A stretch of DNA of 64,000 nt from Saccharopolyspora gloriosae. Lineage in GTDB: Bacteria > Actinomycetota > Actinomycetes > Mycobacteriales > Pseudonocardiaceae. The DNA is taken from positions 1,985,501 to 2,049,500 of the forward strand of contig NZ_JACHIV010000001.1 of assembly GCF_014203325.1 (NCBI RefSeq), written 5' to 3'. The first letter of the stretch is position 1. Every line of letters begins with the position of its first letter. Positions 11,277 through 41,622 of the stretch are shown piece after piece. The notes beneath the pieces are model-generated. The model saw only the letters and a program-made list of their open reading frames with translations, was not told where the DNA came from and made no database searches. The position numbers and the translations under genes were made by a program.

Positions 11277-11281
11277 GGGTG

Positions 11282-11510: not shown

Positions 11511-13349
11511 ATGTCGTACCTGCCCGAGCTGGCGGCGTTGCCCGCCGGGGCGCGGGTCGTCATCCGGCTGCCCAACGGTCCTGAGCTCGCGTCCGCGCTG
11601 CTGGCCTGCTTCGACCGCGAGCTCGTCGCGGTCCCGCTGGCGCCGCGCGGAACCGACCCCGCCGAGATCGTGCGGCGGGTCCGGGCGAGCGCCGTGGTGG
11701 AGCAGGTCGGCGGCGAAGTGGAGGCGCGTGCCACGGGCCTCCCCCTGGAGCACCCGGACGCGGCGGGCCTGGCGTTCATCATGTTCACCTCCGGTTCCAC
11801 CGGGAGACCGAAAGGCGTCCGGCTCAGCCGTCGCGCGGTGCTCGGCAACGCCGCGAAAACCGCCGTGCTGCACGGGATCTCACCGGACCGCCCACACGGG
11901 ACATGCCTGCCGCTGTACCACTGCAACGCGCTGGTGATGTCGCTGCTCGGCACGCACCAGACCGGGGCGCCGCTGGTGCTGCACTCGCGGTTCGACCCGG
12001 CCGGGTACTTCGCCGCGCTCGCCGCGGGCGGAGCGCGCACCGCGTCGATCGTCCCGGCGCTGCTCGCGGACCTGCTCGACGCCGCACCCGACTGGCCCCC
12101 GGAACTCGACTACCTCATCACCGCCGCCGCACCGCTGACCGGCGACCTCGTTCGCCGCTTCCACCGGACCTACGGCCCACGGCTGCGGCAAGGCTACGGG
12201 CTCACCGAAGCCGTCAACTTCAGCTTCACCACGCCCCTGCTGGACGCGGCCGGATTCTCCGCGCAATACCTGGACCGGTTCCCGCCGGTCGGGCAAGCCC
12301 TGCCGGACACGGAACTGCGGCTGGAATCCGGCGAAGTGCAGATCCGCACCCCCGACCTGATGGACGGCTACTGGGAAGACCCGGCCGCCACCGCCGAAGC
12401 CGTCACCGACGACGGCTGGCTGCGCACCGGCGACCTCGGCGAACTGCGCGACGGGCTGCTCGTGCTGCACGGGCGCACCAAGGAACGGATCAACCGGGGC
12501 GGCGAGAAGCACTACCCGCTGGAAGTCGAACGCGGCTGGCGCGCCGACGGCCTCACCGGGCGCTTCGCCGCCGTCGGCGTCGCCGAACCCGCGCTGGGCC
12601 AAGAGATCGGCCTCGTCACCGACGACGCGGAAGTGGGCGCCGTCCAAGACCTCTGCGAACGGACCGCGCTGCGCCCCGCGGCGCTGCGGTTCGGCGGATA
12701 CCGCGCCACCGCCACCGGAAAGCCGCAGCGATCCAAGATGGGAGCCACGCTCGCCGCCCGGCGGCTCGCCCCCGGGCGCTACGAACGGCTGCTGCAGCAC
12801 GCCGCCGTCGCCGCCCGCCGGATGCACGCCGCCGCGCCCGGAACCGACGAGCTCGCCGCACTCGCCGCGCTCGCCCCGCCGACCGCGACGGCCGAAGACG
12901 ACGTGGCGTTCGCCGCCGTCGACTTCGTCCGCGAGCACTGGACGAGCCCCGACAGCGCCGAACTGGCAGCGGCGAAATCCGTGTGGCGCGCCAAGCTCGC
13001 CGCCGCCTGGCCGCTGTCGGCCCACGTCGAACTCGCCGCGGAAGTCGCCGCGGCCGAAGGCGCCCCCGCCGTGGCCGTCCCGTTCGGCGAAGAGACCACC
13101 ATCGAAGACGGGCGGCTGCTGGTGCTGCCGCACGCCACCGGAACCACCACCGGCCAAGTGCCCTGGGCGCTCGGTCCCGTGTGGACGTTCCTCACCGACG
13201 GCAGGACCGGCCACCGGGTGAACCGGTGGAGCAGGCTGCGCCGGCTCCGGCACGACGGACACGCCCTCGTCGGCTGCTCCGTGCTGCGCGCCGGACGGCA
13301 CGACCTCGGCGGCGTCATCTGGGCCCGCCCGACCCAGCAGGAGGAATGA
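11511..13349 (+). CDS. Adenylate-forming (acyl-CoA synthetase/AMP-ligase) protein with unusual C-terminal extension
   Basis: 612 residues. The central ANL-superfamily signature is clear: [11 protein letters not shown] near residues 88-98, YGLTEAVNF near 228, TGDLG near 309 and the A10-type lysine motif GKPQRSKM near 404-411. The part before the nucleotide-binding motif is about 100 residues shorter than in ordinary acyl-CoA synthetases. About 200 residues follow the ANL core that I do not recognise (Ala/Glu-rich, ending ARPTQQEE). There is no carrier domain. It should activate a carboxylic acid as an acyl-adenylate; the acceptor (CoA, a carrier protein or an amine) is not evident. ACGAGG lies about ten bases before the ATG. 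The stop region overlaps the cupin ribosome-binding site, so the two form an operon, possibly part of the NRPS cluster. Confidence 0.85.
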   Translation: MSYLPELAALPAGARVVIRLPNGPELASALLACFDRELVAVPLAPRGTDPAEIVRRVRASAVVEQVGGEVEARATGLPLEHPDAAGLAFIMFTSGSTGRPKGVRLSRRAVLGNAAKTAVLHGISPDRPHGTCLPLYHCNALVMSLLGTHQTGAPLVLHSRFDPAGYFAALAAGGARTASIVPALLADLLDAAPDWPPELDYLITAAAPLTGDLVRRFHRTYGPRLRQGYGLTEAVNFSFTTPLLDAAGFSAQYLDRFPPVGQALPDTELRLESGEVQIRTPDLMDGYWEDPAATAEAVTDDGWLRTGDLGELRDGLLVLHGRTKERINRGGEKHYPLEVERGWRADGLTGRFAAVGVAEPALGQEIGLVTDDAEVGAVQDLCERTALRPAALRFGGYRATATGKPQRSKMGATLAARRLAPGRYERLLQHAAVAARRMHAAAPGTDELAALAALAPPTATAEDDVAFAAVDFVREHWTSPDSAELAAAKSVWRAKLAAAWPLSAHVELAAEVAAAEGAPAVAVPFGEETTIEDGRLLVLPHATGTTTGQVPWALGPVWTFLTDGRTGHRVNRWSRLRRLRHDGHALVGCSVLRAGRHDLGGVIWARPTQQEE

Positions 13350-13906: not shown

Positions 13907-13929
13907 GCGGTCGTTTCGGGTGTGTGGTC

Positions 13930-14036
13930 GGGTGGCGGAACCTCAGTGCCTTCCTCGCTGCGGGATCTTTTTCCCTAGTGGCTCCGCCACGAGGGAAAAA
14001 GCTGTCCTCGCGAGGAAGGCACTGAGAACCCGTGGG
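13930..14036 (+). repeat. Dispersed palindromic element, copy 2 (core)
   Basis: Same core as copy 1. The outer arms are CTCAGTGCCTTCCTCGC (13942-13958) and its perfect complement at 14010-14026. The inner near-palindrome reads CCCTAGTGGC where most copies read CCCGAGTGGC. It starts 24 bases after the cupin stop, in the gene's orientation, and continues into the alternative tail described in the next feature. Confidence 0.9.
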
Positions 14037-14200
14037 GGTCGGCTTTTCGACGTGGGCTATTCGCTGCGCGAATACAGGCACGGCCTTCGGCCGCCAGGCA
14101 GGCTTGCTTCGCCGCCCAGAGCACGGCTTCGCCGCGAGGCAGGCTGGGGTCGCAGTTCTAACGATGGTTTTGCCGTGAGGCAGGTTTGCTTCCCTCGGCA
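14037..14200 (+). repeat. Alternative tail of palindromic element (small-hairpin type)
   Basis: This replaces the CAGCGGC-TTC-GCCGCTG tail of the 159-bp form. It begins near GGTCGGCTTTTCGACGTGGG, contains the small palindrome TATTCGC-TGC-GCGAATA, then a run of short hairpins of the types GGCC-TTC-GGCC and GGC-TTC-GCC separated by GCAGGC-like spacers. The same tail follows copy 6 near 62 kb. Together with copy 2 it fills the gap between the converging cupin and GGCT-like genes; no gene is seen here. Confidence 0.75.
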
Positions 14201-14932: not shown

Positions 14933-15328
14933 ATGGAACTGCCCGAAGGCCTGCTGGACCTGCTCTGCAAGCCGAGCCCGTGCTTCGTCGCCACCGCGAT
15001 GCCCGACGGCGCGCCGCAGCTCACCCAGACCTGGTGCGACACCGACGGCGACCACGTCCTGATCAACACGGTGGAAGGCGCGCAGAAGGTGCGCAACCTC
15101 CGCCGCGACCCGCGAGTCGCCGTGAACGTCACCGACCCGGAGAGCTCCGCCCGCTACTACGCGCTGCGCGGCCGGACCGTGGACATCCGCCACGACGGCG
15201 CCGTGGAGCACATCCACGAGCTCTCGCACCGCTACCTGGGCATGCCGTACCCGTGGTTCGGCGGCGAACGCGAAGAAGACCGGCTACTGGTCCGAATCCG
15301 AGTCGACAGCCTCAGTTTTGTGGGGTGA
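14933..15328 (+). CDS. PPOX-class (pyridoxamine 5'-phosphate oxidase fold) protein, probably F420-dependent
   Basis: 131 residues, the usual length for the small split-barrel flavin or deazaflavin-binding family. The order CFVATAMPDGAPQLTQTW, then VLINTVEGAQKVRNLRRDPRVAV, then YYALRGRTVDI is typical of actinobacterial PPOX-class F420-dependent proteins. Such proteins reduce or oxidise small molecules with F420 or FMN; the substrate is unknown. GAGGAGG lies about nine bases before the ATG. It diverges from the GGCT-like gene across about 80 bp, which must hold both promoters, and copy 3 of the palindromic element follows 26 bases after its stop. Confidence 0.8.
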   Translation: MELPEGLLDLLCKPSPCFVATAMPDGAPQLTQTWCDTDGDHVLINTVEGAQKVRNLRRDPRVAVNVTDPESSARYYALRGRTVDIRHDGAVEHIHELSHRYLGMPYPWFGGEREEDRLLVRIRVDSLSFVG

Positions 15329-15354
15329 GTCGGGGTCGTTCTGCGTTGGTGGTC

Positions 15355-15513
15355 GGGTGGCGGAACCTCAGTCGGTCTCTCGCTGCGGGATGTTTTTCCC
15401 GAGTGGCTCCGCCACGAGGGAAAAAGCCGTCCTAGCGAGAGACCGACTGAGAACCCGCGGGTGGTCCATTCGCGTGCGTGGTCACCGCTCAGCGGCTTCG
15501 CCGCTGACAGGAC
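15355..15513 (+). repeat. Dispersed palindromic element, copy 3 (159-bp form)
   Basis: Outer arms CTCAGTCGGTCTCTCGC (15367-15383) and its perfect complement at 15435-15451. The inner T5...A5 palindrome and the CAGCGGC-TTC-GCCGCTG tail ending GACAGGAC are present. It follows the PPOX-type gene in the same orientation and lies between two converging genes. It is exactly as long as copies 1, 4 and 5. Confidence 0.9.
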
Positions 15514-15571
15514 ACTGCTGAAAAGCCGCTCTGCGAGCGGGTTTTCCGGTGTGGGGCTGTGGGTTGAGTGA

Positions 15572-19204: not shown

Positions 19205-20098
19205 TCAACCGGTTCTGGCGAAGCGACGGCCGATCACGACCAGCGCCAGCGCCGAGAACGCCAGCACCACGGCCATCTCCACGAGCGGCGGCACCGGCGT
19301 GCCTCCCCACTCGACCGGCGTGAAGATCAGCGTCGACTGCGGCGCGCCGAGCTGCCCGAGGATGGTGTGGCGCATCGCGTCCACCGCGTAGGTCAGCGGG
19401 TTCACCAGGGTCAGCGAAGCCATCCAACCGGGCATCGCGCTGATCGGGAACATCATGCCGGACAGGAAGACCAGCGGCGTGATCAGCACGGAGAGCACCG
19501 TGTTGAACGTCTGCACCCGTTTGATCAGCACCGCCACGGCGGCGGCGAGCACGGTCATCGACAGCGCGGCGATCGAGACCTCGACGACGAGCATCGCGAA
19601 CAGCGCGGGGTGGTACGGCACGCCGACCAGGCCCGCGGTGAGCAGCACGACGGCGCTCTGCGCGGTCGCCACCGTGGCGCCGCCCAGGCACTTGCCGAGC
19701 AGCAGCGTGCCGCGGAACACCGGCGCGGCCAGCATCTCCCGCATGAACCCGGTCTGGCGGTCCCACACGATCGACGCGCCGACGGAGATCGCCGGCGCCT
19801 GCGCGGCCATCACGAGCACACCGGGGAACAGGAACAGCATGTAGTCGCTCGCGGCCCGCGCGCCGCCGCCCGCGTCGGCGAACAACCGGGACAACCCGAC
19901 CCCGAGCACGTACAGGAACAGGAACGGCGGCAGCAGCGACACCGCCACTCTGGTGCGGTCCCGCAGGAAGTGCAGCACTTCGCGGCGCCACACCATGCTC
20001 CCGGCGCGCCATTCGTTCGCCAGCCGACCGCGCGGCTCGGTGTCCTGTTCGGACGGACGGGACGCGGGTGCGCGGCGGGGTGGTGCGGTGCGGGTCAA
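19205..20098 (-). CDS. cinH: ABC-2 type permease of lanthipeptide exporter (CinH-like)
   Basis: 297 residues with six hydrophobic segments after a polar N-terminus. FLYVLGVGLSRLF, SIVWDRQTGFMREMLAAPV and PLVFLSGMMFPISAMPGW are typical of DrrB/ABC-2 permeases. With the adjacent ATPase it forms a two-part exporter; it lacks a C39 peptidase domain, so it exports but does not cleave the leader. I chose a TTG start at 20098 because GAGGAG sits seven bases upstream; a GTG at 20161 in the same frame would overlap the ATPase gene. Position and order match cinH in the cinnamycin cluster. Confidence 0.88.
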   Translation of the reverse strand: MTRTAPPRRAPASRPSEQDTEPRGRLANEWRAGSMVWRREVLHFLRDRTRVAVSLLPPFLFLYVLGVGLSRLFADAGGGARAASDYMLFLFPGVLVMAAQAPAISVGASIVWDRQTGFMREMLAAPVFRGTLLLGKCLGGATVATAQSAVVLLTAGLVGVPYHPALFAMLVVEVSIAALSMTVLAAAVAVLIKRVQTFNTVLSVLITPLVFLSGMMFPISAMPGWMASLTLVNPLTYAVDAMRHTILGQLGAPQSTLIFTPVEWGGTPVPPLVEMAVVLAFSALALVVIGRRFARTG

Positions 20099-20144
20099 CG
20101 CGAACTCCTCGGGTCGCCGTGGACGGATTCCGGTGGTGCGGCGC

Positions 20145-21122
20145 TCATCCGGCGGGCACACCGGGGGCGTCGCGGATGGCGCGGCCGGTGTAGTGCAGGA
20201 ACACCTCGTCCAGGCTGGGGCGGGTCACGGTCACCTCGAAGATCGGCACGTCCAGTCCGGAGCACAGCACCGGCACGAACCGCGCGCCGTCGGCGACCTG
20301 CACCTGCACGCCGCCGTCGATCGCGGTGGCCGCCAGGTCGAAGCGGTCGCGCAGCACCCGCACCGCGGCGGCGTCGTCGTCGGTGCGCAGCGCGATGCGA
20401 TCGGCGCCGATGACGGACTTCAACTCCGCCGGAGTCCCCTGCGCGACGATCCGGCCCTCGTCGATGATCGCGATCCGGTCGCACTGCTCCGCCTCGTCGA
20501 GGTAGTGCGTGGTGAGGAAGACCGTGGTGGCCTCCTGCTCGGCGATCCGCCGCAGGTAGGTCCAGATCTCCGCGCGGGTCTGCGGATCCAGGCCGACGGT
20601 CGGTTCGTCCAGGAACAGCACGCGCGGCCGGTGCAGGAGCCCGCGGGCGATCTCCAGCCGCCGCCGCATCCCCCCGGAGAACGTCGCGACCCGATCGTCG
20701 CGCCGTTCGCGCAGCCCGACCAGGTCCAGCATCGACGCCACGCGTTCGGCCACGACCGCCCGCGGCATCCCGTACAGGTCGGCGTGGAAGGTCAGGTTCT
20801 CCGCCGTGGTCAGGTCGGTGTCCAGCGTCGACTCCTGGAAGACCAGCCCGAGCCTGCGGCGCACCTGGTGACCGTCGCGGACCACGTCGTACCCGGCGAT
20901 CTCGATGCGCCCGGAGTCCGGCCGGACCAAGGTGCACATCATCGCGATCGTGGTGGACTTGCCCGCCCCGTTCGGCCCGAGGAAGCCGAACGTCTCACCG
21001 CGCCGCACCGTGATGTCCACGCCGCGCACGGCGTGCACGCCCCGGTAGGACTTGTGCACGTCGCGCGCCAGGACCGCGGGCGCGTCAGCGGAGCGGTCCT
21101 CACCTCGCCGGAGTCGTCGCAC
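20145..21122 (-). CDS. cinT: ABC transporter ATPase (CinT-like, DrrA type)
   Basis: 325 residues. Walker A GPNGAGKST near residue 49, ABC signature FSGGMRRRLEIARGL, Walker B VLFLDEPTVGLDP and the switch histidine in FLTTHYLDEAEQ are all present. The C-terminal extension is the DrrA type. It powers export together with the permease encoded next. GTG start with GAGGAG five bases upstream. Its start is nine bases after the hydroxylase stop, inside one operon running from 25997 to about 19205. In a cinnamycin-type cluster it exports the modified peptide and may contribute to immunity. Confidence 0.92.
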   Translation of the reverse strand: MRRLRRGEDRSADAPAVLARDVHKSYRGVHAVRGVDITVRRGETFGFLGPNGAGKSTTIAMMCTLVRPDSGRIEIAGYDVVRDGHQVRRRLGLVFQESTLDTDLTTAENLTFHADLYGMPRAVVAERVASMLDLVGLRERRDDRVATFSGGMRRRLEIARGLLHRPRVLFLDEPTVGLDPQTRAEIWTYLRRIAEQEATTVFLTTHYLDEAEQCDRIAIIDEGRIVAQGTPAELKSVIGADRIALRTDDDAAAVRVLRDRFDLAATAIDGGVQVQVADGARFVPVLCSGLDVPIFEVTVTRPSLDEVFLHYTGRAIRDAPGVPAG

Positions 21123-21131
21123 GGGGGCTCC

Positions 21132-22034
21132 TCACTCGTCGCGGAGGCCGGTGAGGCGGCTCCGCCAGTCCTCGGGGACCACGAAGCCGAAGCTCCACCG
21201 GTGGCGTTCGGTCGGGTTGACGATGCAGTGCCAGAACAGCTTGTCCGGGTCCTGCTCGGCCTTGAAGAACCGCACGATCCGGCGGCGTTCCCGCAGCGTC
21301 ACGAGCTCACCGGTCCGCGGGTTCTGGTAGCGGAAGAACGAGGTCGCGCCGCCGTCGGGGAAGTCGTCGTCCAGGTCCACCACGTACATCCGCCAGCCGG
21401 GCTGGTCCTCGTTGGTGTGCCAGAGCCGGTAGCTGCGCGGTGGGTACCACATGGCGCCGGAGAGCCGGACCTCGTCGCCGAAGACCCCTTCCAGCAGGCG
21501 GATCGCGTTCGTCTTCGCCTCGAAGTAGTCCTGGTAGCCGGGATGCTCGACGTGCTCGTCGAGGTTCACCAGGTGGAAGTCCCGCCGCGGCGCGTCCGCG
21601 TCGGCCGGGTCGCGCCAGTGCGCCGCCATCATCTGCCGATGCCATGCCTGGAAAGCCGGGTCGGCGGGGGACTGAGACGTCGACTCCAGGTCCTCGGCGC
21701 GGAACCGGGCGTGGAACGCGCCCATGTCCACCGGGGGCCGCACCTTCAACCGGGGCAGCTCGTCGATCAGGCCCGCCAGTTCCGGCACCGCCGCCAAGTC
21801 GTACTCGTGGTGGTAGAAGGCGGTTTCCGCGGGTGGCGCGGGAGCCGGCGCGGGTTCGGCGGTGGCCGCGAACGTGGCGGAACCCCGGGCGAGCTCCGGG
21901 GCGGTGAAGTCGAACCCGTGCCTGCCGCCGAGCGCGATGATCTCGTTCATCCCGGTGACGGCCTTGAGCTGCTGGGCGAGTTCGGGGCGGTCCTGGGTCG
22001 CCTGCAGGAAGTCCACGCAGGATTCGACGGACAT
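21132..22034 (-). CDS. cinX: CinX-like lanthipeptide hydroxylase with N-terminal Nif11-type domain
   Basis: 300 residues. Residues 1-50 read like a Nif11 domain (SVESCVDFLQ, PELAQQLKAV, FDFTAPEL), a module best known as a RiPP leader. An Ala/Pro linker (50-70) precedes the second domain, in which H206, E209/D210, H269 and R279 are plausible Fe(II)/2-oxoglutarate oxygenase ligands (WHTNED; FWHC; RHRWSF). In the cinnamycin pathway CinX hydroxylates the beta carbon of Asp15; the predicted core here keeps that Asp in CDG. Position between lanM and the exporter matches cinX. The function is inferred from order and motifs; the metal-binding pattern is not the simplest HxD type, so the ligands need checking. 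Confidence 0.82.
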   Translation of the reverse strand: MSVESCVDFLQATQDRPELAQQLKAVTGMNEIIALGGRHGFDFTAPELARGSATFAATAEPAPAPAPPAETAFYHHEYDLAAVPELAGLIDELPRLKVRPPVDMGAFHARFRAEDLESTSQSPADPAFQAWHRQMMAAHWRDPADADAPRRDFHLVNLDEHVEHPGYQDYFEAKTNAIRLLEGVFGDEVRLSGAMWYPPRSYRLWHTNEDQPGWRMYVVDLDDDFPDGGATSFFRYQNPRTGELVTLRERRRIVRFFKAEQDPDKLFWHCIVNPTERHRWSFGFVVPEDWRSRLTGLRDE

Positions 22035-22067
22035 GACGGACTCCTTCGTGCCGATTCGGGTGGGACG

Positions 22068-25000
22068 TCAGGGGCGGTCCGGCGGTGGATCGAGCAGCAG
22101 CACCGACGGGATCCGATCCGGATGCGCGATGCGCAGGAAGTGCATGCCGTAGCCGGCGATGCCCAGCATCAGGCCGGGGAAGAAGTCGGCGCTGTGCTCG
22201 CCGAGCCCGTGCTCGGCGTCGTCCAGCGACCGCCACATCTCCCGCACCTGCACGTTCGCCTCCAGCTGAAACGCGGGTTCGCCGCGCAGCCGCGCGTAGC
22301 GGACCAGCAGTTCCGAGTTGCCGGCCGTGCCGTGGCACAACGTGTGGTTGCGCAGCCGGGAGAAGTTGCGCAGGGTCGCGGCCAGCGCGTGGCGGGCCTC
22401 CCGCAGCAGCGCGTCGTCGTCCCCGCCGAGCAGCGACCACGCCGCGATGCGGGTCAGCCCGATGCCCGCCGCCCCGTTGCACCAGGCGTTGGAGAAGTGG
22501 TGGCCGTTCTTGGCGACCTGCCCGGTGTTCGTGCGCAGGTCGTACCAGTCCTGCTCGGTGGCGTCGAAGTGCCGCGCCTCGTAGGCGAACGCGCGCCTGC
22601 CGGCCGCGACGTAGTCCTCGCGGCCGGTGCGCGTGCCCAGCAGGACCAGCGCCCAGCCGATGCCGCCCGCGCCGTGGGCGAGGCCGGTCAGGTCGTCGCG
22701 CACGTTCTCCGGGGTGTTCGACGGCCAGCTCAGCACGTCGCCGCGCTCCCGCGCGTGGCGCAGCACGTGCGCGGCGCAGTGGTGCGCCAGGTCGACGGCC
22801 TTCTCCCCGAGCACCGGGCGCAGCTCCAGCAGCACCGGGATCAGCCCGGCGGCGCCGTGCAGCACGTCGAGGTGGTCGTCGGCGTCGACCAGCTCGGGCA
22901 CGTCCGCGCTCAGCCGCACCGCCTCCTCCGCCAGCTCCTGCTCGCCCCACAGCCGGTGCAGGTGGGTGAGCAGGTAGAGCCGTCCCCCGACGTCGGCGAA
23001 GGCTCCGGGCCGCTGCTGCCCGGAGTCGAGCGCGTGCCGCAGCGCGCGTCGCGCGGCGTGCCGGAACTCGGGGCGCGGGACCAGGTCGTCGAGGTAGGCG
23101 AGGAACAGCGCCACCCCGGCCGAGCCCTGGTACAGGTCGCCTTCGATGTCGACGGCCTCCATCTCGGCCCCGTCGCGCCGGAACGACGTCCACGGCGCGG
23201 GAGCCGACGGGTCCCGCAGCATCGCGCACAGCCGTTCGCCGATCCGGGTCGCGTAGTCCAGCGCGGTCGTCACGAACGCCGGGCTGCTGATCTCGCCGGT
23301 GGACAGGCTCGCCGCGATGTAACGGGCCTGCTGCGCCCGGTTGCGCGGCGTCAGGTGCCGGATTCGCCGCGCGGCGTGCTCCAGCGGGGAGCGGGCCAGC
23401 GCGGACGGCACCGCGTCGGCGTGGTCGTGCACGAGGTCCGCGCCGTGCACCGGCGCCGTGAAGATCGGCACGTCCAGCCGCCACATCGACGTGGTCTCCC
23501 GGTCGGCGAGCACGCCGTCCTGGTCCCAGGTGCGGGGGAAGGTGCGCACCGTGTTCAGCAGCAGGTCCACTTCCAGCGGTTCCGCGAGGCTCTTGGGGTG
23601 CTGCGCGGTCAGCAGCAGCTGCGCGTAGATCTGGGTGCTCCAGTTGAGGAACCGGACGTGGGCGCCCTCGAAAGCCTGCGACAGCAGGACGATCGCCTCG
23701 TCGGCGTGCTGCTCCAGCCATTCGTGCACGCGGTCGAAACCGTCCATGATGGACTCGATGTGGTCGTGCGGGTCCACCAGCTCCCCGTCGAGGAACACCC
23801 GGTTCGCGCCGCTGAGCTCGACCTGCACGCCCGTGACGTTCTCCACCGTGGCCGCGAAGCTGAGCCGCTGCTCGCTGATCCGCGGCACCGGCATCGGCAT
23901 CTCGTAGCTCTCGCCGCCGGTGTAGCCGCTGAGTCGCATCTGCTCCGGTCCGCCTGCGTCCGCGCGCGGCCACTCCAGCAGCCCGGTGCGGAACACGGAG
24001 TCCTGCATCGTCCCGCCCGCGCCGTCACGACCGGGCGGGGATGCGCCGAACACCGTCTCGCCGTCGCACACGAACGCGTGGCCGTCGGCGACGACGATGT
24101 TCTCGAAGTGCAGGTCGCTGCCGCCGAGCACGTAGAACAGCGCCAGGTAGCCGCCGAGCTCCCGGTACACCTGCGCGGCGTCCGCCGCGGTGGCGACCTC
24201 GTTGCGCCCCAACGGGATCGCGGCCTCGTAGCCGTACCCGTCGTGGGCGAGCACGGGACGCGTCGCGAACGCCACGACGTCGCGCTCGCGCAGCCGGTCC
24301 AGCACCACTTGCAGGCCCGCCTCGGAACGCAGGCAGCGCGGCTTGCAGTAGAAGGTGCCGGTACCGCCGTCGTCGAGGGCGGCCGTCACCACCGCCACGC
24401 TGCGTCCGCCCGCGTGGTAGTCCGAGGTGCCCAGGCGCACCGAGCGGAACTCGGTGACGACCCGGCCGAAGAACTCCGCGCCGATCCGCTCGGCGTCGGT
24501 GGCGAGCCGGCCGAACAGCTCGGCGCCGTAGTCGGCCAGCAGGTCCGTGAGGTGCGCGAGCCAGCGCCCCAGCACCGGGTACTTCAGGAAGAACGCGTGG
24601 TACGACGCCGCATCGCCGAACGCCGCGTCGAGGTAGGCGAGGTACCCGGCCTCGCCGGACTGCTCCCGGTCGAGCCCGTGCCGCGCCCGGTGCACGTTCG
24701 CCTCGGCTTCCACCGTCCACGCCAGCGCGAGGGCGAACCGGTCGTGCAGGTGGCGTTGCAGGTCGTCGATCAGCCCGTCGCCGATCGAGCCCGGCAGCCC
24801 GGCGCGGGCCGCCGCCAGCCGCCGCCCGAGTTCGACGAGGAAAGGTTCGCAGGCCGTGGCGAGCCTGCCGTAGTACACGTCGACCTGCCGCCAGGTCGCG
24901 CGGGCGTCGGACCGCGCCGGGTCCCATCCGAGCACGGCCGCCCGGTAGGTCGGCAACCAGTCCCGGTGCAGTTCGTCGAGCAGCTCCCGCACCTCCGCCG

Positions 25001-25277
25001 CGGCCTGGTCCGGGGCCGATTCGAAGCGGCGGTAGGCGGTGAGCGCGTCCACGAGCTGCTCGCGGTCGTGGCGCTGGGGCTTCGCGCAGTGCTGCGCCTC
25101 CTGCTCGAACTTGTCCGCGAGCCGCCCGGCCAGGTGCTCCAGGCGCCACCGCTCGACGGGATCGGACAGCGGCTCGTCCTGCGGACGACCGCGGGCGCGC
25201 AGCGCCGCGACCACGCGCAGCCGCTCGCTCAGCGTGGCCGCGCGGGCCGCCAGATCGAGTGCACGGTCGGTCTGCAT
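22068..25277 (-). CDS. cinM: Class II lanthionine synthetase LanM (CinM-like)
   Basis: 1069 residues, normal for LanM. The N-terminal dehydratase (about 130-530) has the kinase-like motif LHFENIVVADGHAFVCDGE near 390. The C-terminal cyclase (about 650-1069) keeps the LanC zinc ligands: Cys933 in WCNGAAGIG, Cys981-His982 in LCHGTAGN, plus GAGGIGWALVLLG. It should phosphorylate and eliminate Ser/Thr of the precursor core and then add the three cysteines to form lanthionine and methyllanthionine rings. GGACAGGAG lies four bases before the ATG at 25277; the longer frame overlapping the precursor gene is not used. It follows the precursor after a strong hairpin. Confidence 0.96.
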   Translation of the reverse strand: MQTDRALDLAARAATLSERLRVVAALRARGRPQDEPLSDPVERWRLEHLAGRLADKFEQEAQHCAKPQRHDREQLVDALTAYRRFESAPDQAAAEVRELLDELHRDWLPTYRAAVLGWDPARSDARATWRQVDVYYGRLATACEPFLVELGRRLAAARAGLPGSIGDGLIDDLQRHLHDRFALALAWTVEAEANVHRARHGLDREQSGEAGYLAYLDAAFGDAASYHAFFLKYPVLGRWLAHLTDLLADYGAELFGRLATDAERIGAEFFGRVVTEFRSVRLGTSDYHAGGRSVAVVTAALDDGGTGTFYCKPRCLRSEAGLQVVLDRLRERDVVAFATRPVLAHDGYGYEAAIPLGRNEVATAADAAQVYRELGGYLALFYVLGGSDLHFENIVVADGHAFVCDGETVFGASPPGRDGAGGTMQDSVFRTGLLEWPRADAGGPEQMRLSGYTGGESYEMPMPVPRISEQRLSFAATVENVTGVQVELSGANRVFLDGELVDPHDHIESIMDGFDRVHEWLEQHADEAIVLLSQAFEGAHVRFLNWSTQIYAQLLLTAQHPKSLAEPLEVDLLLNTVRTFPRTWDQDGVLADRETTSMWRLDVPIFTAPVHGADLVHDHADAVPSALARSPLEHAARRIRHLTPRNRAQQARYIAASLSTGEISSPAFVTTALDYATRIGERLCAMLRDPSAPAPWTSFRRDGAEMEAVDIEGDLYQGSAGVALFLAYLDDLVPRPEFRHAARRALRHALDSGQQRPGAFADVGGRLYLLTHLHRLWGEQELAEEAVRLSADVPELVDADDHLDVLHGAAGLIPVLLELRPVLGEKAVDLAHHCAAHVLRHARERGDVLSWPSNTPENVRDDLTGLAHGAGGIGWALVLLGTRTGREDYVAAGRRAFAYEARHFDATEQDWYDLRTNTGQVAKNGHHFSNAWCNGAAGIGLTRIAAWSLLGGDDDALLREARHALAATLRNFSRLRNHTLCHGTAGNSELLVRYARLRGEPAFQLEANVQVREMWRSLDDAEHGLGEHSADFFPGLMLGIAGYGMHFLRIAHPDRIPSVLLLDPPPDRP

Positions 25278-25314
25278 CGAACTCCTGTCCGGCGATCGGA
25301 GGCGGGCGAGGAAA

Positions 25315-25340
25315 CGCGGTGAGCCCGGAGGCTCACCGCG
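25315..25340 (-). terminator. Hairpin between precursor and lanM (attenuator or processing site)
   Basis: A perfect 11-bp inverted repeat, CGCGGTGAGCC and GGCTCACCGCG, with a four-base loop, starting nine bases after the precursor stop. There is no T-run. Such hairpins in lanthipeptide operons commonly let the precursor be made in excess over the synthetase; that role here is an inference. Confidence 0.8.
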
Positions 25341-25348
25341 CCGGTGCT

Positions 25349-25585
25349 CTACTTGGTGGAGCCGTCGCACAGGATCGTGGCCGGGCCCGAGCTGCACGTG
25401 GAGGCGCAGGCGAAGATCTCGGTGGCGGCGACCCCCTCGGTCCAGAAGTCGAGCGTCTCCTGGTCGATGCGCTCGACCGCGTCGGGCAGGTCACCCGGGG
25501 TGACGCCGAACGCGGCCGGGTTCTCGATCAGCGCGGTGCGGAACTCGGCATCGATGACGGCTTGGCGCAGAATGGTGTCGGACAT
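25349..25585 (-). CDS. cinA: Cinnamycin/duramycin-type lanthipeptide precursor
   Basis: 78 residues: a 59-residue acidic leader ending TEIFA and a 19-residue core, CASTCSSGPATILCDGSTK (25408-25352). Cinnamycin is CRQSCSFGPFTFVCDGNTK. Identical are Cys1, Cys5, Ser6, Gly8, Pro9, Thr11, Cys14, Asp15, Gly16, Thr18 and Lys19; position 4 is Thr instead of Ser. By analogy the rings are Cys1-Thr18, Thr4-Cys14 and Cys5-Thr11, with a Ser6-Lys19 lysinoalanine and 3-hydroxy-Asp15. Phe7, Phe10 and Phe12 are replaced by Ser, Ala and Ile. Ser3, Ser7 and Ser17 are extra sites that might be dehydrated. Cleavage is predicted after FA, as in the AFA end of the cinnamycin leader; no dedicated protease gene is seen nearby. 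Confidence 0.96.
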   Translation of the reverse strand: MSDTILRQAVIDAEFRTALIENPAAFGVTPGDLPDAVERIDQETLDFWTEGVAATEIFACASTCSSGPATILCDGSTK

Positions 25586-25625
25586 GACTTCCTCCTGAAC
25601 ATCGGCTTTCTCGGACTGCTTGCGA

Positions 25626-25997
25626 TCATTCGGATGGTTCAGCGCGCAACCGGGCGACCAGCGAGATGCCCAGTTGTTGTTCGACGTTCTTCAATTCCAC
25701 GAGCGCCGGGCTCATGTTCTCGTCCTTGTTCTGCCAGGCGACCACCTCCTTCTCGTTCGCGGGCAGGTCTGCGTGCATCCACAGCGACTCCATCCATTCC
25801 TTCGTGGAGAAGGGATGCAGGTCGGTGACCGGCCGGAGCCGGGACAACATCGGTTCCTCGTGCAGGGCGAGGGCGAGCTCCAGCACCTCGCGCAACTTCC
25901 CGTCAGGGGGCAGCAACGAGCAGAACAAGACGAGTTCCTGGATCTGCCGGATCGCGTCGACTTCCGGGTAGATGGTCGGAACATCCGAGTGCTTCAT
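25626..25997 (-). CDS. cinorf7: Cinorf7/DurN-like lysinoalanine-forming protein
   Basis: 123 residues, soluble, acidic, with no recognisable enzyme motif. Length, position immediately before the precursor (40-bp gap) and context match Cinorf7 of the cinnamycin cluster and DurN of the duramycin cluster, small proteins that promote addition of Lys19 to dehydroalanine-6. Both residues are present in the core encoded next. It is the first gene of the operon. The assignment rests on context and size; I could not align it to DurN residue by residue. Confidence 0.82.
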   Translation of the reverse strand: MKHSDVPTIYPEVDAIRQIQELVLFCSLLPPDGKLREVLELALALHEEPMLSRLRPVTDLHPFSTKEWMESLWMHADLPANEKEVVAWQNKDENMSPALVELKNVEQQLGISLVARLRAEPSE

Positions 25998-26170
25998 CGA
26001 CGGTTCCCATTCCGGTCGGAGGCCAGTGGGAACAACGCTAGGAGGAACCGGTTGCAGTCCGCCTTCAATCCTGTTTCACCGCACGACGCCCGAGGTGCAA
26101 GAAAGGTCGATCCCCCACCGAGAACCAGTCCTCGCCCCCGATTCCAGGCGAGCAATGCTTTTTGATCATT
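25998..26170 (-). promoter_or_regulatory. Promoter region of the lanthipeptide operon
   Basis: This gap precedes the first gene of the six-gene operon. It contains a 7-bp inverted repeat, GTTCCCA (26003-26009) and TGGGAAC (26027-26033), just before the start codon, that could be a regulator site or a 5'-leader hairpin. No clear -35/-10 pair stands out. The SARP and response regulator encoded nearby are the likely controllers. Confidence 0.45.
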
Positions 26171-26329
26171 GTCCTGTCAGCGGCGAAGCCGCTGAGCAGT
26201 GACCACCAGAGCAACCGGCACCGCCGCGGGTTCTCAGGTGCTTCCTCGCGAGGACGGCTTTTTCCCTCGTGGCGGAGCCACTCGGGAAAAAGATCCCGCA
26301 GCGAGGAAGCACCTGAGGTTCCGCCACCC
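26171..26329 (-). repeat. Dispersed palindromic element, copy 4 (159-bp form, reverse strand)
   Basis: Read on the minus strand, the outer arms are CTCAGGTGCTTCCTCGC (26317-26301) and its perfect complement (26249-26233). The inner T5...A5 palindrome and the CAGCGGC-TTC-GCCGCTG tail are present. It begins 37 bases after the stop of the response-regulator gene, in that gene's orientation, so it separates the regulator operon from the biosynthetic operon. Confidence 0.9.
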
Positions 26330-26366
26330 GAACCCCTGCTCAAGCCGAGACCGACAGCAGGCGGGC

Positions 26367-27011
26367 TCAGTTCTCGGCCAGCCAGGCGCAGAGGGCTGCT
26401 TGGACGCGGTTGCCCACTTCGAGCGCGGCGAGGATGCGGCTCACGTGCGCCTTCACGGTGCTCTCCCGCATCCCGAGGGCGGTCGCGATCTCGGCGTTGC
26501 CGCCGCCCGCAGCCAGCTCGGCCAGCACTTCGCGTTCCCGCGAGGTGAGCCGGTCGATCTTCGCGCGCGCCGCGGCGGCTTCCGCGCCGGTGTCGCGGTG
26601 GTAGTGGTCGACGAGCCTGCGCGCCGCCGCCGGGTGCAGCATCGCCTGCCCGTGCGCGACGACCCGCACGGCGCGCACGATCTCGGCGGGTTCGCTGTCC
26701 TTGAGCAGGAATCCGGCCGCGCCCGCGGCGAGCGCGCCGTGGACGTACTCGTCGAGGTCGAACGTCGTCAACGTGACGACCTGCGGCGGATCGGGCAGCG
26801 CGCGCAGCTTCCCGGTGGCCTGGATGCCGTCCATGCGCGGCATCCGCACGTCCATCAGCACGACGTCGACCCGGTGGGCGGTAGCCTGCTCGACCGCTTC
26901 GAGCCCGTCGCCGGCCTGGGCGACGACGTCGATGTCGGGGGCGTCGTCGAGGATGTCGGCGAGCGCGAGGCGCACCAGCGTGTCGTCGTCGACGATCAAC
27001 GTGCGGATCAT
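26367..27011 (-). CDS. NarL/LuxR-type response regulator (CinR-like)
   Basis: 214 residues. Receiver domain with the acidic pocket VDDD and phospho-acceptor Asp54 (VVLMDVRMP), Thr and Lys switch residues (TTFD; LLKDSEP), and a C-terminal LuxR helix-turn-helix (LTSREREVLAELAAGGGNAEIATALGM). It is activated by the sensor kinase encoded directly upstream; the start codon overlaps the kinase stop. The cinnamycin cluster also contains a two-component system (CinRK), so this is the probable counterpart. Confidence 0.9.
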   Translation of the reverse strand: MIRTLIVDDDTLVRLALADILDDAPDIDVVAQAGDGLEAVEQATAHRVDVVLMDVRMPRMDGIQATGKLRALPDPPQVVTLTTFDLDEYVHGALAAGAAGFLLKDSEPAEIVRAVRVVAHGQAMLHPAAARRLVDHYHRDTGAEAAAARAKIDRLTSREREVLAELAAGGGNAEIATALGMRESTVKAHVSRILAALEVGNRVQAALCAWLAEN

Positions 27012-28171
27012 GTCCCCTCCGGGGAGTGGTCGCCGGCCGGGATGCGCGCGCTCAGCCGCCAGCCGCCCGCGCCGGACGGCCCGTGCTCCAGCGTTCCGTG
27101 CAGCGCGTCCACGCGCTCCGCCAAGCCGAGCAGGCCGTGCCCGCCCGGTTCCCGGCGCGAGCCGGGATCGCCCGCCGTGTTCTCCACGTCCACTGTGGAC
27201 TCCGGCGGGCCGTGCTCCACCCGCACCCGCACGCTCGATCCCGGAGCGTGCTTGCGCGCGTTGGTCAACGCCTCCTGCACCACGCGGTAGATCGCGAGCC
27301 GGTGGCTGAACGGCAGCGCGGTCGCGGCGCCCCGGATCTCCGCCTCCACCTGCTGGCCCGCCGCGCGCGCCTCGTCCAGCAGCACCGGCAGCTCCCGCAG
27401 CTGCCGCGGTCCCGGAGCGCCCTCGGTCTCCGGGGCGCGCAGCCCGCCGAGCACGTCGCGCAGGTCCCGCAACGCGTCCGTGGAGGTGGCCCGCAGCAGA
27501 TCGATGCGATCGGCGACCTGCGGGGGCAGGTCCGCCGAATGCCGTTGCAATGCGCCGGTGTGCAACGCCAGCACGCTCAGCGAGTGCGCCAGGGCGTCGT
27601 GCAGTTCGGAGGCGACGCGGATCCGCTCGGCCATCCGGGCGTGCTCGGCCCGCAGCTCCCGCTCCACCCGCAGCTGTTCGACCTGCGCGGTCATGCTCGT
27701 CAGCAGCCGCCTGCGGCTGCCCGCCCACATCCCCAGCGCCACCACCGCGACCAGCAGCAGCACCGGCCCGTACGAACGGGTGCTCCACAGCGATTGCTGC
27801 GGCTGCCCCAGGAAGTTCCCCGCCATGGCCGCCGCCGCGCACACCGCCGCCGCCACCAGCCTGCCGCGGGAGGCGAACGAGAACAGCACCACCACCAGCG
27901 GCAGCACCGCGCCCAGCGCCGCCGCGAGCGCCGTCGCCAGCACGGCGGGCACGGCCGGGTACCTCGTGCGCCACGCGAGCGCGGCCGTGGTCAGCACCGC
28001 CGCACCGACCTGCGGGCTGAGCACGGTGCCTCCCGCGACCACGTACCCCTCCTGCGCGGACAGCAGGCCTACCGCCAGCAGCAGCGCCGCCTCGGCCCAC
28101 GGCCGGAGCGGACGTTCGGTCCCGTCCACCGCGCACCTCCCGCCGCGTCCGCGGTCATGACGGTCGAGCAT
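27008..28171 (-). CDS. Sensor histidine kinase, NarX/DesK type (CinK-like)
   Basis: 387 residues from MLDRHDRGRG. About four to five membrane segments (residues 27-150) without an obvious large extracellular domain, then a HisKA_3 dimerisation helix with phospho-acceptor His191 (ELHDALAHSLSVLALHTGAL) and an ATPase domain (VVQEALTNARKHAPG; GHGLLGLAERV). A kinase that senses within the membrane would suit detection of a lipid-targeting peptide or of membrane change; that is inference. The start is not certain, since a GTG about 15 codons later is also possible. It diverges from the methyltransferase gene. Confidence 0.88.
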   Translation of the reverse strand: MLDRHDRGRGGRCAVDGTERPLRPWAEAALLLAVGLLSAQEGYVVAGGTVLSPQVGAAVLTTAALAWRTRYPAVPAVLATALAAALGAVLPLVVVLFSFASRGRLVAAAVCAAAAMAGNFLGQPQQSLWSTRSYGPVLLLVAVVALGMWAGSRRRLLTSMTAQVEQLRVERELRAEHARMAERIRVASELHDALAHSLSVLALHTGALQRHSADLPPQVADRIDLLRATSTDALRDLRDVLGGLRAPETEGAPGPRQLRELPVLLDEARAAGQQVEAEIRGAATALPFSHRLAIYRVVQEALTNARKHAPGSSVRVRVEHGPPESTVDVENTAGDPGSRREPGGHGLLGLAERVDALHGTLEHGPSGAGGWRLSARIPAGDHSPEGT

Positions 28172-28200
28172 AGAAATCAGCCGACCCCCTACTTTCGTAC

Positions 28201-28223
28201 CGGTCGCCGTGTCCGAGCGACCG
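28201..28223. promoter_or_regulatory. Inverted repeat between divergent kinase and methyltransferase genes
   Basis: CGGTCGC (28201-28207) and GCGACCG (28217-28223), 7-bp arms with nine bases between, in the 89-bp gap between two divergent genes. Size and position suit a response-regulator operator controlling the resistance genes and the two-component operon; no direct evidence. Confidence 0.4.
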
Positions 28224-28260
28224 ATGCCGATTCGGCCACCGCGCCCTACCGTGGGCGAAC

Positions 28261-28938
28261 GTGGCCCAGATCCAGACACCGAACACCAGAGCCGGATGGC
28301 TGAACTTCTCCCGCGAGGCCGTCCGCAGCTTCCACACGACCGGCGCGTTCGCGCCGAGCAGCGCCCGCCTGGCCGCCCGGCTCGCCGCACCGCTCGCGCC
28401 GCCGCAGCAGCGGAACCCGGCGCGCGTGCTGGAAGTCGGCGCGGGCAGCGGTGTCGTGACCCGAGCGCTTGCCCGGCGGCTCGGCCCCGCCGACCGGCTC
28501 GACGTGGTCGAGGTCAACCCCCGCTTCGTGCGGATGCTCGCCGAGTCGCTGCGCACCGACTTCGCGCTCTCGGCGGCGTCGGACCGCATCCGGCTGCACG
28601 AGCGGTCGATCCTCGACGCGGAGCTGGAACCCCGCTACGACGTCGTCGTCTCCGGATTGCCGTTCACGAACTTCGACCCGGCCGTGGTGCGGTCGATGCT
28701 GCAACGCCACGTCGACCTCCTGGTGCCGGGTGGGGACCTGACGTTCTTCGGCTACCTCGGCACCCAGCGGGCGCGGACCGCGTTCGCCGGTCGCGCCGAA
28801 GCGCGGCGGCACCGCGGGGCGGTGGCGGTCGAACGCGAGTTCATCGACCGCTACGGCCTCGGCCGGGCGACGGTCTGGCGCAACCTGCCGCCCGCGCACG
28901 TCTGGCACCTGCGCGCGCCGAGCCCGGAGCAGACCTGA
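28261..28938 (+). CDS. Phospholipid (phosphatidylethanolamine) N-methyltransferase-like protein, probable immunity
   Basis: 225 residues. The start FSREAVRSFHTTGAFAPSS matches the membrane-binding N-terminal helix and TGA-PSS motif of PmtA-type phosphatidylethanolamine N-methyltransferases; VLEVGAGSGVVTRAL (about 55-69) is SAM motif I and VVEVNPRFV is motif II. Cinnamycin and duramycin kill by binding phosphatidylethanolamine, and the cinnamycin producer is reported to protect itself by methylating this lipid with a cluster-encoded enzyme (Cinorf10). A gene of this family beside a cinnamycin-type cluster is therefore a strong immunity candidate. GTG start; the stop overlaps the DedA start (TGATG). 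Confidence 0.85.
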   Translation: MAQIQTPNTRAGWLNFSREAVRSFHTTGAFAPSSARLAARLAAPLAPPQQRNPARVLEVGAGSGVVTRALARRLGPADRLDVVEVNPRFVRMLAESLRTDFALSAASDRIRLHERSILDAELEPRYDVVVSGLPFTNFDPAVVRSMLQRHVDLLVPGGDLTFFGYLGTQRARTAFAGRAEARRHRGAVAVEREFIDRYGLGRATVWRNLPPAHVWHLRAPSPEQT

Positions 28939-29573
28939 TGCCCGCCCCGGCCGAGTGGCTCGCGCAGCTGCCGCCGCTGACCGCGTACGGGCTGCTCGCG
29001 GGCCTGGTGTTCGTCGAGGGCGTCCTCGTGGTCAGCCCGTTCGTGCCGACCTTGGGGCCGTTGCTGGTCGCGGGAGCGCTCGCGTACTCCGGCGCGCTCG
29101 ACCTGTGGCTGGTGGTGCTGTTCGCCGCCCTCGGCGCGGTCTGCGGCGACGCCCTGGGCTTCTACACCGGGCTGCGGCTCGGGCCACGGCTGCGTTCCAC
29201 CCGCGTCGCCCGCCGCGCGCACCGGGCGTGGGACCGGGCGAGCGACCTGTTCCGCCGCCACGGCGGCCCCGCGCTCATCCCGTGCCGCTTCGTCCCGCTG
29301 GTCCGGTCCGCGGCACCGCACCTGGTGGGCGCCTCCGGCATGCCGTACCGGCGGATGGCGCCCTACAGCGCGCTTGCCGCGGTGCTGTGGACGTGCGGCG
29401 AAGGCGGTGTCGGCTACCTCGTCGGCGCCTCCTACACCGGCCTGTCCGGGGTGTTCGGCGTGGTGCCGGTGGTCGCGGCCGTGGTCGTGGCGCTGGGCAT
29501 CGTGCTCTGGCGGCGTCGCCGTCGCCGCGAGCGGCACGAGGACCCGCGGGCGGAAGCCGAGCCGGTGTCGTAG
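28938..29573 (+). CDS. DedA-family membrane protein
   Basis: 211 residues with several hydrophobic segments. The DedA/VTT pattern is clear: LVFVEGVLVVSPFVPTLGP, GDALGFYTGLRLG, FRRHGGPALIPCRFVPLVRSAAP and a basic tail. DedA proteins move phospholipids or undecaprenyl phosphate between membrane leaflets; one Bacillus member affects exposure of phosphatidylethanolamine. It is translationally coupled to the methyltransferase, so here it may move modified or unmodified phosphatidylethanolamine and add to self-protection. That role is inferred. It ends two bases from the end of the SARP gene. Confidence 0.88.
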   Translation: MPAPAEWLAQLPPLTAYGLLAGLVFVEGVLVVSPFVPTLGPLLVAGALAYSGALDLWLVVLFAALGAVCGDALGFYTGLRLGPRLRSTRVARRAHRAWDRASDLFRRHGGPALIPCRFVPLVRSAAPHLVGASGMPYRRMAPYSALAAVLWTCGEGGVGYLVGASYTGLSGVFGVVPVVAAVVVALGIVLWRRRRRRERHEDPRAEAEPVS

Positions 29574-29575
29574 CA

Positions 29576-30370
29576 CTACGGTGCGGGCACTCGGCATTCG
29601 GTGAGCGCCCGCTCGTCGTCGCGCAGGATCGCCAGGTGCAGCGCGCGCACTTCCGCGCTCGGGTCCACGCCGAACTCGTCGCGGATCCGCACCGTCAGTT
29701 CGCCGTAGGCCATCAGCGCCTCCACCCGACGGCCGCAGCGGTACAGCGCGAGCATGAACTGCCGCCAGAACGGTTCGTGGAAGGGGTGCTCGAAGGTCAG
29801 CGCGCGCAGTTCCGCGACGAGTTCGTCGTGGCGCCCCATGGCGAGGGACAGCGCCGCGCGGCGTTCCAGCGCCCACATCCACTGCTCGTTGAGCCGGGGG
29901 ACGACCTCGCGGTGCAGCGAGTCCGAAGCGACGTCCGGCAGCACCCGGCCGCGCCACAGGGCCAGCGCCGCGCGCAGCGCCTCGGATTCCCGGGCAGGGT
30001 CGCCCGAGCGGGCCGCCGCCCGCGCGGAGCCCAGCAGCTCGGTGAACCGGGCGAGGTCGAGGTTCTCCGGCGGCAGCTCGATCATGTACCCGGCGTGCGA
30101 GGTGCGGATCAGTTCGGCCGCCGGTCCGAACGGGTCCTTCATCGCGTGCCGGAGCCGGGTCAGGCAGGTGTGCAGCGCGCGTCGCGGCCGGTGCGGCGGG
30201 GTGGCGTCCCAGATCCGGTCGACCAGTTCCTCCACGGACACGACCTGGTTGAACTTGACGAGCAGGGCCGCGAGCAGCACGCGTTGCCTGCCGCCGGGGA
30301 CCGGGAGCCCGCGGCCTCCGACCTGCACCGACAGCGGTCCGAGCACGTGGAACGACAGCGACCGGTTCAC
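29576..30370 (-). CDS. SARP-family transcriptional activator (CinR1-like)
   Basis: 264 residues. N-terminal OmpR-type winged helix (SFHVLGPLSVQVGG; LAALLVKFNQVVSVEELVDRIW; ALHTCLTRLRHAM) followed by a bacterial transcriptional activator domain (residues about 100-245). The GTG at 30370 was chosen because GGGGAGG lies six bases upstream and SARPs usually start near this point; a GTG at 30397 is in frame. SARPs activate antibiotic gene clusters from direct repeats near promoters. The cinnamycin cluster also has one (CinR1), which supports including this gene in the cluster. Confidence 0.9.
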   Translation of the reverse strand: MNRSLSFHVLGPLSVQVGGRGLPVPGGRQRVLLAALLVKFNQVVSVEELVDRIWDATPPHRPRRALHTCLTRLRHAMKDPFGPAAELIRTSHAGYMIELPPENLDLARFTELLGSARAAARSGDPARESEALRAALALWRGRVLPDVASDSLHREVVPRLNEQWMWALERRAALSLAMGRHDELVAELRALTFEHPFHEPFWRQFMLALYRCGRRVEALMAYGELTVRIRDEFGVDPSAEVRALHLAILRDDERALTECRVPAP

Positions 30371-30945
30371 CTCGAACCTCCCCAGTGTGGCGTCCACCGA
30401 CCGCCTGCTCGCGGCCGCTCGCCGGCCGTGCGGTGAGTTCCGGCGCGCCGCGGTCGCCGTGGAATGCGCCGGGCCGGGCCGGAATTGGATCGCCTCTTTC
30501 TAGCACCGTTGTTCAGGGCGCGGCAATGGAATTGTCCGATGTTCGGCGAAGTGCGGATTCGAGGATCGATGCTTCCTTTGCAGCTCGTATTTGCAATGGT
30601 GTCGAGCGATGCTTCGCCGATCGTGAAAGTGGCAAATTATCCACGTTTATGAGAAGTGATCACTCGGCGTGGCGGGGCCTTGTTCCTTCGTTGGGGTGAA
30701 TATCGTCGGCAACCCGGCGAGTCCGGCGGTCCGGTTTGTCGCGCTTGTTTCTCATGTCCAGGATATGCTGCCTGAACTGCGAAAAGAACAAATCGGACGA
30801 CGCGGGTGGGGATTCGGCTCGAATTCGCGCGGTGGCTCTCGATTCGCTCGAAGGGGGAACTAGGGTGGCCCCCGAGACCTGGAGATCAGTTGCTCCGCGA
30901 GGGCTCGGGGATCGCTCGGGCCGGCGGCGAGAAGCAGGTAGAGGG
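30371..30945. other. Long intergenic region between SARP and MFS genes
   Basis: 575 bp read away from on both sides, so it holds two promoters. The middle part (about 30530-30660) is clearly AT-richer than the surroundings, with CAGCTCGTATTTGCAATGG and GGCAAATTATCCACG. The octamer GATGCTTC occurs twice (near 30569 and 30608). The MFS frame stays open back to 30736, but codon quality there is poor. No convincing small gene is seen. Confidence 0.5.
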
Positions 30946-41217: not shown

Positions 41218-41251
41218 GTGCCTGTCTTCGTCTCGGCTTGCGCAGTGGGGC

Positions 41252-41410: not shown

Positions 41411-41622
41411 ACAGACCGAGAACGCTGCTCACCAGGGGACGACAAGATCAATGTGCTGCCGTTCGTGGATCATCGGTGGCGCTAGGCTGATCGAGTGATC
41501 GGCGGGCTTTTCGCTCCCCGTGCGAGTGGTTGGTGGGACGCTGGTGATCGAGTTGTCTGCGCCAGCGTTCCTGGGGGAGTGACCGTGTCGAGCGAAGCAC
41601 GTGTGGTTGATCGGGGCGCCGC

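Follow-up and report, generated by a model that had tools for sequence, protein, structure and literature searches.

Lantibiotics of the cinnamycin family have been used or tried as agents directed at phosphatidylethanolamine (PE), and duramycin reached phase II in cystic fibrosis. By published description, duramycin, duramycin B/C, cinnamycin B, mathermycin, and coerumycin are fellow members of this family. According to work on cinnamycin, methylation of PE confers immunity, CinKR mediates induction, and CinR1 acts as the activator, and a review states that cinnamycin holds PE through hydroxy-Asp15 and backbone contacts of residues 10 to 13. The kyamicin cluster of Saccharopolyspora spp. KY3, KY7, and KY21 comprises the genes N, A, M, X, T, H, R, K, L, orf11, and R1 and no Y, Z, orf8, or orf9 (PMC6974636). 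Here, we describe a locus with the same gene set and from the same genus, in a 64,000-nucleotide stretch (the window) of the 6.83-Mb single-contig genome of Saccharopolyspora gloriosae (GCF_014203325.1; contig NZ_JACHIV010000001.1, positions 1,985,501 to 2,049,500). The original prediction for this DNA was a complete cluster of the cinnamycin/duramycin type with a divergent core peptide. We find that the locus is very probably an orthologue of the kyamicin cluster that makes a 19-residue cinnamycin-family lantibiotic, with PE as the target and LanL as the immunity protein.

The genes and signals of the cluster are as follows (window positions).

25349 to 25585, minus strand: lanA, precursor of 78 amino acids (NF033431, PF19398; exact core match).
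25626 to 25997, minus strand: lanN, lysinoalanine protein of the DurN/CinN/KyaN type (PF19375, 5.9e-39; PDB 6c0g, 3.3e-50).
22068 to 25277 (start at about 25277), minus strand: lanM, class II lanthipeptide synthetase of 1069 amino acids (TIGR03897, 514.9 bits; DUF4135, LANC_like).
21132 to 22034, minus strand: lanX, predicted Asp15 hydroxylase with an N-terminal Nif11 domain (Nif11, 1.4e-11; orthologues; Foldseek).
20145 to 21122, minus strand: lanT, ABC transporter ATPase (TIGR01188 drrA, 335.4 bits).
19205 to 20161, minus strand: lanH, membrane subunit of the ABC-2 type with an uncertain start codon (PF01061, 3e-27).
26367 to 27011, minus strand: lanR, response regulator with receiver and LuxR-type helix-turn-helix (PF00072, 4.3e-26; PF00196, 1e-15; residues 376 onward of P0001).
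About 27008 to 28171, minus strand: lanK, sensor histidine kinase, start uncertain (HisKA_3, PF07730, 3.6e-15).
28261 to 28938, plus strand: lanL, probable PE N-methyltransferase (methyltransferase domain; 73% identical to the copy in congener G003).
28938 to 29573, plus strand: orf11 homologue, DedA/VTT-domain membrane protein (PF09335, 1.7e-16).
29576 to 30397, minus strand: lanR1, SARP activator, start codon uncertain (BTAD, 2.3e-40).
26035 to 26079, minus strand: lanN-A-M promoter, read in the sequence as SARP-type boxes GTGAAAC, TTGAAGG, and CTGCAAC with an 11-bp period, then TAGCGT.
25313 to 25342, minus strand: hairpin in the lanA-lanM gap (stem of 13 bp, -38 kcal/mol, z -3.46).

To place the locus in a family, we began with the precursor. 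Its 59-residue leader (MSDTILRQAVIDAEFRTALIENPAAFGVTPGDLPDAVERIDQETLDFWTEGVAATEIFA) and 19-residue core (CASTCSSGPATILCDGSTK) are exact in the sequence, as had been proposed. The precursor scores 109.1 bits against the NF033431 cinnamycin_RiPP model, above the cut-off of 35, and 7e-31 against PF19398 (DurB-like). LanN, encoded upstream of lanA on the same strand, matches the lysinoalanine synthase in PDB 6c0g; this is the small protein that had been noticed ahead of the precursor, and it is a DurN protein. LanM, LanX, LanT, and LanH follow downstream of lanA. All cluster frames are open, and the precursor and LanN match the family models, in agreement with the claim of an apparently complete cinnamycin-family cluster.

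The core has the family pattern of 19 residues with C1, S/T4, C5, S/T6, T11, C14, D15, S/T18, and K19. We compared it with the distinct cores (31, the window's included) found at 61 loci with the 19-mer pattern, which were drawn from L009 to L073 (65 loci, with many repeat entries for one genome). The count leaves out L018, L030, L040, and L068, which lack the pattern, together with L116 and 11 places with a precursor match and no locus. The bridge residues are present in all 31 cores, which show no variation at C1, C5, G8, T11, C14, D15, G16, and K19. Both S and T occur at position 4; position 6 has S in 29 cores and T in 2, whereas position 18 has T in 29 and S in 2. At position 10, 20 cores have F, 5 have I, 4 have L, one has V, and one, the window's, has A; Phe10 is therefore absent from 11 of 31 and is not a defining feature of the family. 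Four cores, the window's among them, are free of aromatic residues. Ala10 is the sole residue unique to the window core, so the core is divergent as claimed, but only at nonbridging positions, where its other differences also lie. An identical core was not found among the 61 family loci or in open PMC text (figures not covered), and a group that had been called small yielded 31 distinct cores. For the predicted mature peptide, we calculate C70H112N20O26S3 with [M+2H]2+ at 873.3682, and 865.3708 for the deoxy form.

Some precursors of this collection depart from the common form. At 12 loci (L043 to L045, L047, L048, L050, L051, L054, L057, L060, L061, and L066), one to four residues follow Lys19 before the stop. 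L018 (genome G253, about 1501 to 1620, plus strand) encodes a peptide ending in ...LNLDCIRTCISGWTIRCDGATF, with cinnamycin-like spacing and without the terminal Lys for lysinoalanine; L040 holds homologues of LanT, LanH, LanR, and LanK. L068 (G863) joins a cinnamycin-type leader to an unrelated core (...EIYACPGTHHCIHTHVCRKTY). Two genomes, G1025 and G809, each have two cinnamycin-family precursor matches.

The synthetase gave the same assignment as the precursor. LanM contains the motifs WCNGAAG and LCHGTAG, which we take to hold the zinc ligands that had been noted as intact. It is the only one of two LanM matches in the genome to exceed the family cut-off. Its identity is 49 to 94% to 14 cinnamycin-type LanMs (61% to that of Streptomyces cinnamoneus L023) and 28 and 26% to two other LanMs from a Kutzneria genome. 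In a LanM tree, a branch with support of 100/99 sets apart the 15 cinnamycin-type sequences, the four Saccharopolyspora sequences group together (98/100), and the window's pairs with that of Saccharopolyspora sp. NFXS83 (100/100); the tree leaves 7 of its 14 inner branches open. A search with core and LanM, as had been proposed, thus returned no identical core and a LanM that groups with the cinnamycin family. The possibility that LanM and the precursor come from another lanthipeptide family and are merely cinnamycin-like found no support and is extremely unlikely, given the NF033431, PF19398, and PF19375 matches; LanM identities and tree contradict it.

LanX carries a Nif11 domain at residues 1 to 48, and the remainder has an oxygenase-like fold in an AlphaFold model (pLDDT 84.1, pTM 0.83). 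The best PDB matches of the model by Foldseek are prolyl hydroxylases (4iw3, E value of 5e-6; PHD2), with weak TM-scores of about 0.3 to 0.45, and Pfam oxygenase models gave no match to LanX. Of the Nif11-oxygenase fusion that had been proposed, the Nif11 part is confirmed, while the oxygenase part comes from the model and its weak TM-scores. LanX is 49 to 95% identical to orthologues in 11 named loci by alignment, and its role as a hydroxylase is predicted. The alignment contains an invariant HTN motif, together with invariant H269 and R279; an HxD iron motif is expected at the HTN position in this oxygenase superfamily. The fusion is not special to this cluster, since all 12 of 12 LanX proteins, including that of S. 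cinnamoneus, carry Nif11, and the window's is an ordinary LanX of the family. LanX proteins with a Nif11 start, the invariant HTN, and no match to a Pfam oxygenase model were noted at window positions 21132 to 22034 and at L019 to L029 and L031.

The exporter, regulatory, and immunity genes follow the family as well. Profile matches were obtained for the two-part exporter, the two-component system, and the DedA protein, as anticipated. The SARP identification stands by its BTAD domain, with the frame reaching to 30397 rather than 30370. For the methyltransferase that had been called PmtA-like, the domain is present, and a PmtA-like role in self-immunity is probable from its orthology to KyaL/CinL; its PmtA score lies far below cut-off. 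LanL orthologues in congeners are 73 to 91% identical. The promoter boxes upstream of lanN are conserved in the aligned upstream regions of three congeners and resemble the three repeats and TAGTGT described at the cinorf7 promoter of the cinnamycin cluster. The hairpin between lanA and lanM occupies the position of the attenuator in the cinnamycin cluster; 1 of 200 shuffles was as good, and a generic scan for terminators passes over it. No Rfam family was found in the window at gathering score.

To determine how closely the locus resembles the kyamicin cluster, we compared it with congeners. The 11 genes N, A, M, X, T, H, R, K, L, orf11, and R1 occur in the same order in G003, with identities across the cluster of 68 to 90% (A 77, N 72, M 75, T 90, L 73, and SARP 68%). 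G003 appears to be a kyamicin carrier: the formula C76H108N20O25S3 and m/z 899.3551 calculated from its core CASTCSAGPFTFACDGSTK agree exactly with those published for kyamicin; its LanM has 1065 amino acids, as does KyaM; and its core differs from cinnamycin at six residues, matching the statement in the kyamicin paper (PMC6974636). This identity is an inference, because the core is not written out in the text of that paper. The window core differs from the presumed kyamicin core at 4 of 19 residues (A7S, F10A, F12I, and A13L), and the compound of the window is thus not kyamicin itself, as the encoded cores are not identical. The attribution to the cinnamycin/duramycin type therefore holds at the level of the family, but the closest cluster is that of kyamicin, from the same genus, and not that of cinnamycin or duramycin.

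The nearest relative is Saccharopolyspora sp. NFXS83 (L019, same contig as G001), whose DurN was 98% identical in a scan of genome contigs for DurN (13 loci). Its cluster has been reported as kyamicin, with published identities to the Kya proteins of 78 (KyaA), 72 (KyaN), 74 (KyaM), 90 (KyaT), 73 (KyaL), and 68% (KyaR1) (PMC10145562). These are close to the values for the window against G003, which points to the kyamicin cluster type. The window peptide is a new member in that its core was not found elsewhere in these searches, but the near-identical NFXS83 cluster is already in print (PMC10145562). NFXS83 proteins are 91 to 99% identical to those of the window (LanM 94%, precursor 99%) and the nucleotides 93 to 95%. 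The two lanA genes differ by eight synonymous changes and one amino acid change (TTC to GCC at core residue 10, two bases), so that Phe10 of NFXS83 in place of Ala10 is the sole amino acid difference between the precursors. Because F10 is in both NFXS83 and G003, these sequences suggest that Ala10 is the derived state; the single F10A change is insufficient to claim selection.

The precursor is present in four of six Saccharopolyspora genomes, the window's included. The three congeneric loci (NFXS83 L019, G002 L033, and G003 L034) have the 11 genes in the same order and share major facilitator superfamily (MFS) and CoA-transferase neighbors. GntR, CN-hydrolase, and APC genes on the lanH side are common to the window, G002, and G003 and had no hits in NFXS83; DNA from further out (window positions 15001 to 15371) nevertheless lies near the NFXS83 cluster. 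An empty site was not found in the cluster-less genomes G004 and G005, where 19-kb stretches contained a CoA-transferase orthologue without the other neighbors tested. In overlapping sets, the family tallies were 5/60, 4/6, 6/394, 5/390, 40/341 (33 over cut-off), and 2/396. No DurN relatives were found in viral contigs and no precursor relatives in plasmids.

The genes, their orthology and order, the conserved bridge residues, and the promoter boxes are observed, and the chemical steps, PE as the target, and immunity are inferred from kyamicin and cinnamycin work. By this analogy, SARP would drive lanN-A-M-X from the promoter at about 26035 to 26079. LanM would dehydrate Thr4, Ser6, Thr11, and Thr18 and close methyllanthionines 1-18, 4-14, and 5-11; LanX would hydroxylate Asp15; and LanN would join Dha6 to Lys19 as lysinoalanine. 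This ring pattern and sequence of steps come from the kyamicin legend, which gives Thr4, Ser6, Thr11, and Thr18 as dehydrated, Asp15 as hydroxylated, and Dha6 and Lys19 as joined (PMC6974636). The leader would be cleaved after ...EIFA, and the peptide, exported by LanTH, would bind PE of rival bacteria. LanR/K would respond to the product by turning on LanL, which in turn would methylate the host's own PE. As it has no Phe7, Phe10, or Phe12 (two more Phe lost than kyamicin), the peptide probably binds membranes less well than cinnamycin does.

Several points weigh against the assignment to a PE-binding kyamicin-type system. The product, its expression, and the lipid roles are predictions from the gene content. 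LanL falls far below the cut-offs for OlsG (50.9 bits against 350) and PmtA (44.5 against 250); the LanM tree has two outgroup sequences of great length, and its clustering was equaled in 27 of 500 label shuffles; a generic sigma-70 promoter scan of 25200 to 26420 found no site; and terminator-like sites are no more numerous than in shuffles. In addition, the window core, alone of 31 in having Ala10, falls outside the motif CxxxCSxGPFTxxCDGxTK that has been published as common to five compounds. A rival reading is a cinnamycin-type peptide with an altered face (Ser7, Ala10, Ile12, and Leu13), for which PE is no longer the main target and which has another lipid target or a signaling role. Besides the uniqueness of Ala10 and its two-base difference from NFXS83 alongside eight synonymous ones, the weakness of kyamicin, which has Ala7 and lacks Phe7, could be read in this way: it is eightfold less potent than cinnamycin on Bacillus subtilis, with a MIC of 128 versus 16 for cinnamycin and 32 µg/ml for duramycin (PMC6974636). 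We consider a loss of PE as main target quite unlikely, however, as Asp15, LanX, and the PE-methyltransferase orthologue are all retained and three other aromatic-free cores exist. Moreover, the reported PE contacts of residues 10 to 13 are made by the backbone, so a peptide that has lost aromatic side chains could still bind. That F10A with Ser7, Ile12, and Leu13 yields a natural aromatic-free cinnamycin-type peptide with an altered lipid preference is an unlikely proposal; if true, the NFXS83 and window peptides would be a one-residue natural experiment on how the family reads membrane lipids.

In 13 media, the strains with the kyamicin cluster remained silent (PMC6974636), and the window cluster may be silent too. 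This silence, the dispersed repeat 60 bp upstream of the SARP boxes, and the lack of a match in two of six congeners would also fit a decaying relic with intact frames and lost expression or activity. We regard decay as very unlikely, given that all frames are open, the SARP boxes are intact, LanM and precursor are 94 and 99% identical to those of NFXS83, and lanA has eight synonymous changes versus one amino acid change.

The dispersed repeat is a palindromic element outside the pathway, with a high copy number and an occurrence across the genus.

26141 to 26350, plus strand: copy between lanR and the lanN promoter.
11276 to 11440, 13928 to 14039, 15353 to 15524, 41231 to 41411, and 61896 to 62011: further window copies.

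All six window copies lie outside the open reading frames picked by composition. A first look at the whole genome gave 462 candidates, of which 40 were scored, and congeners gave 124 to 433, with 40 scored each. Among 45 copies read (6 from the window and 39 of 40 fetched stretches), a 7-nucleotide segment of the long stem has 16 versions. The arms are perfectly complementary in 35 of 44 equal-arm copies, compared with a mean of 3.9 and a maximum of 12 over 2,000 re-pairings of the arms, a shuffle that is not a probability since the copies are related and similarity selected. In several of the nine misfits, the left arm and the right arm pair well with arms of different copies, as recombination would produce, and congener loci had perfect arms in 9 of 12 copies read. 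The sequences thus suggest that compensatory changes maintain the hairpin and that some copies are apparent recombinants. At the same site, NFXS83 has a short degenerate piece of the element (GCGGAACCTCAG...GCTGCGGGATC) without a full copy. Plasmids, phages, and Rfam gave no match, and literature listings contained nothing on it. The element may be terminator-like, REP/MITE-like, or a structured RNA; a dispersed hairpin with differing but complementary stems may merit separate study.

Elsewhere, the window contains a large nonribosomal peptide synthetase gene (4 to 11058, plus strand) with four condensation, three AMP-binding, and three carrier domains and a thioesterase, followed by a further AMP-binding protein (11511 to 13349, plus strand), and an RHS-repeat protein with DUF6531 (43223 to 47077, plus strand).

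The cluster is a known kind of system, and its core, undescribed in the sequences and text searched, is that of a further member of the cinnamycin family. Comparison of gene order with the cinnamycin cluster of S. cinnamoneus, which had been suggested, showed N, A, M, X, T, and H orthologues in the same order and 55 to 71% identical; the cinnamycin cluster has the additional genes Y, Z, orf8, and orf9, which are outside the window's set. The bridge positions of the cinnamycin core are identical to those of the window, and 8 of 19 residues differ. With NFXS83, the window forms a pair of natural cores that differ at residue 10 in clusters of 93 to 95% DNA identity, which would permit a direct test of the contribution of Phe10 to PE binding and potency. 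Beyond this pair, the window cluster adds one more sequence to a well-described group.

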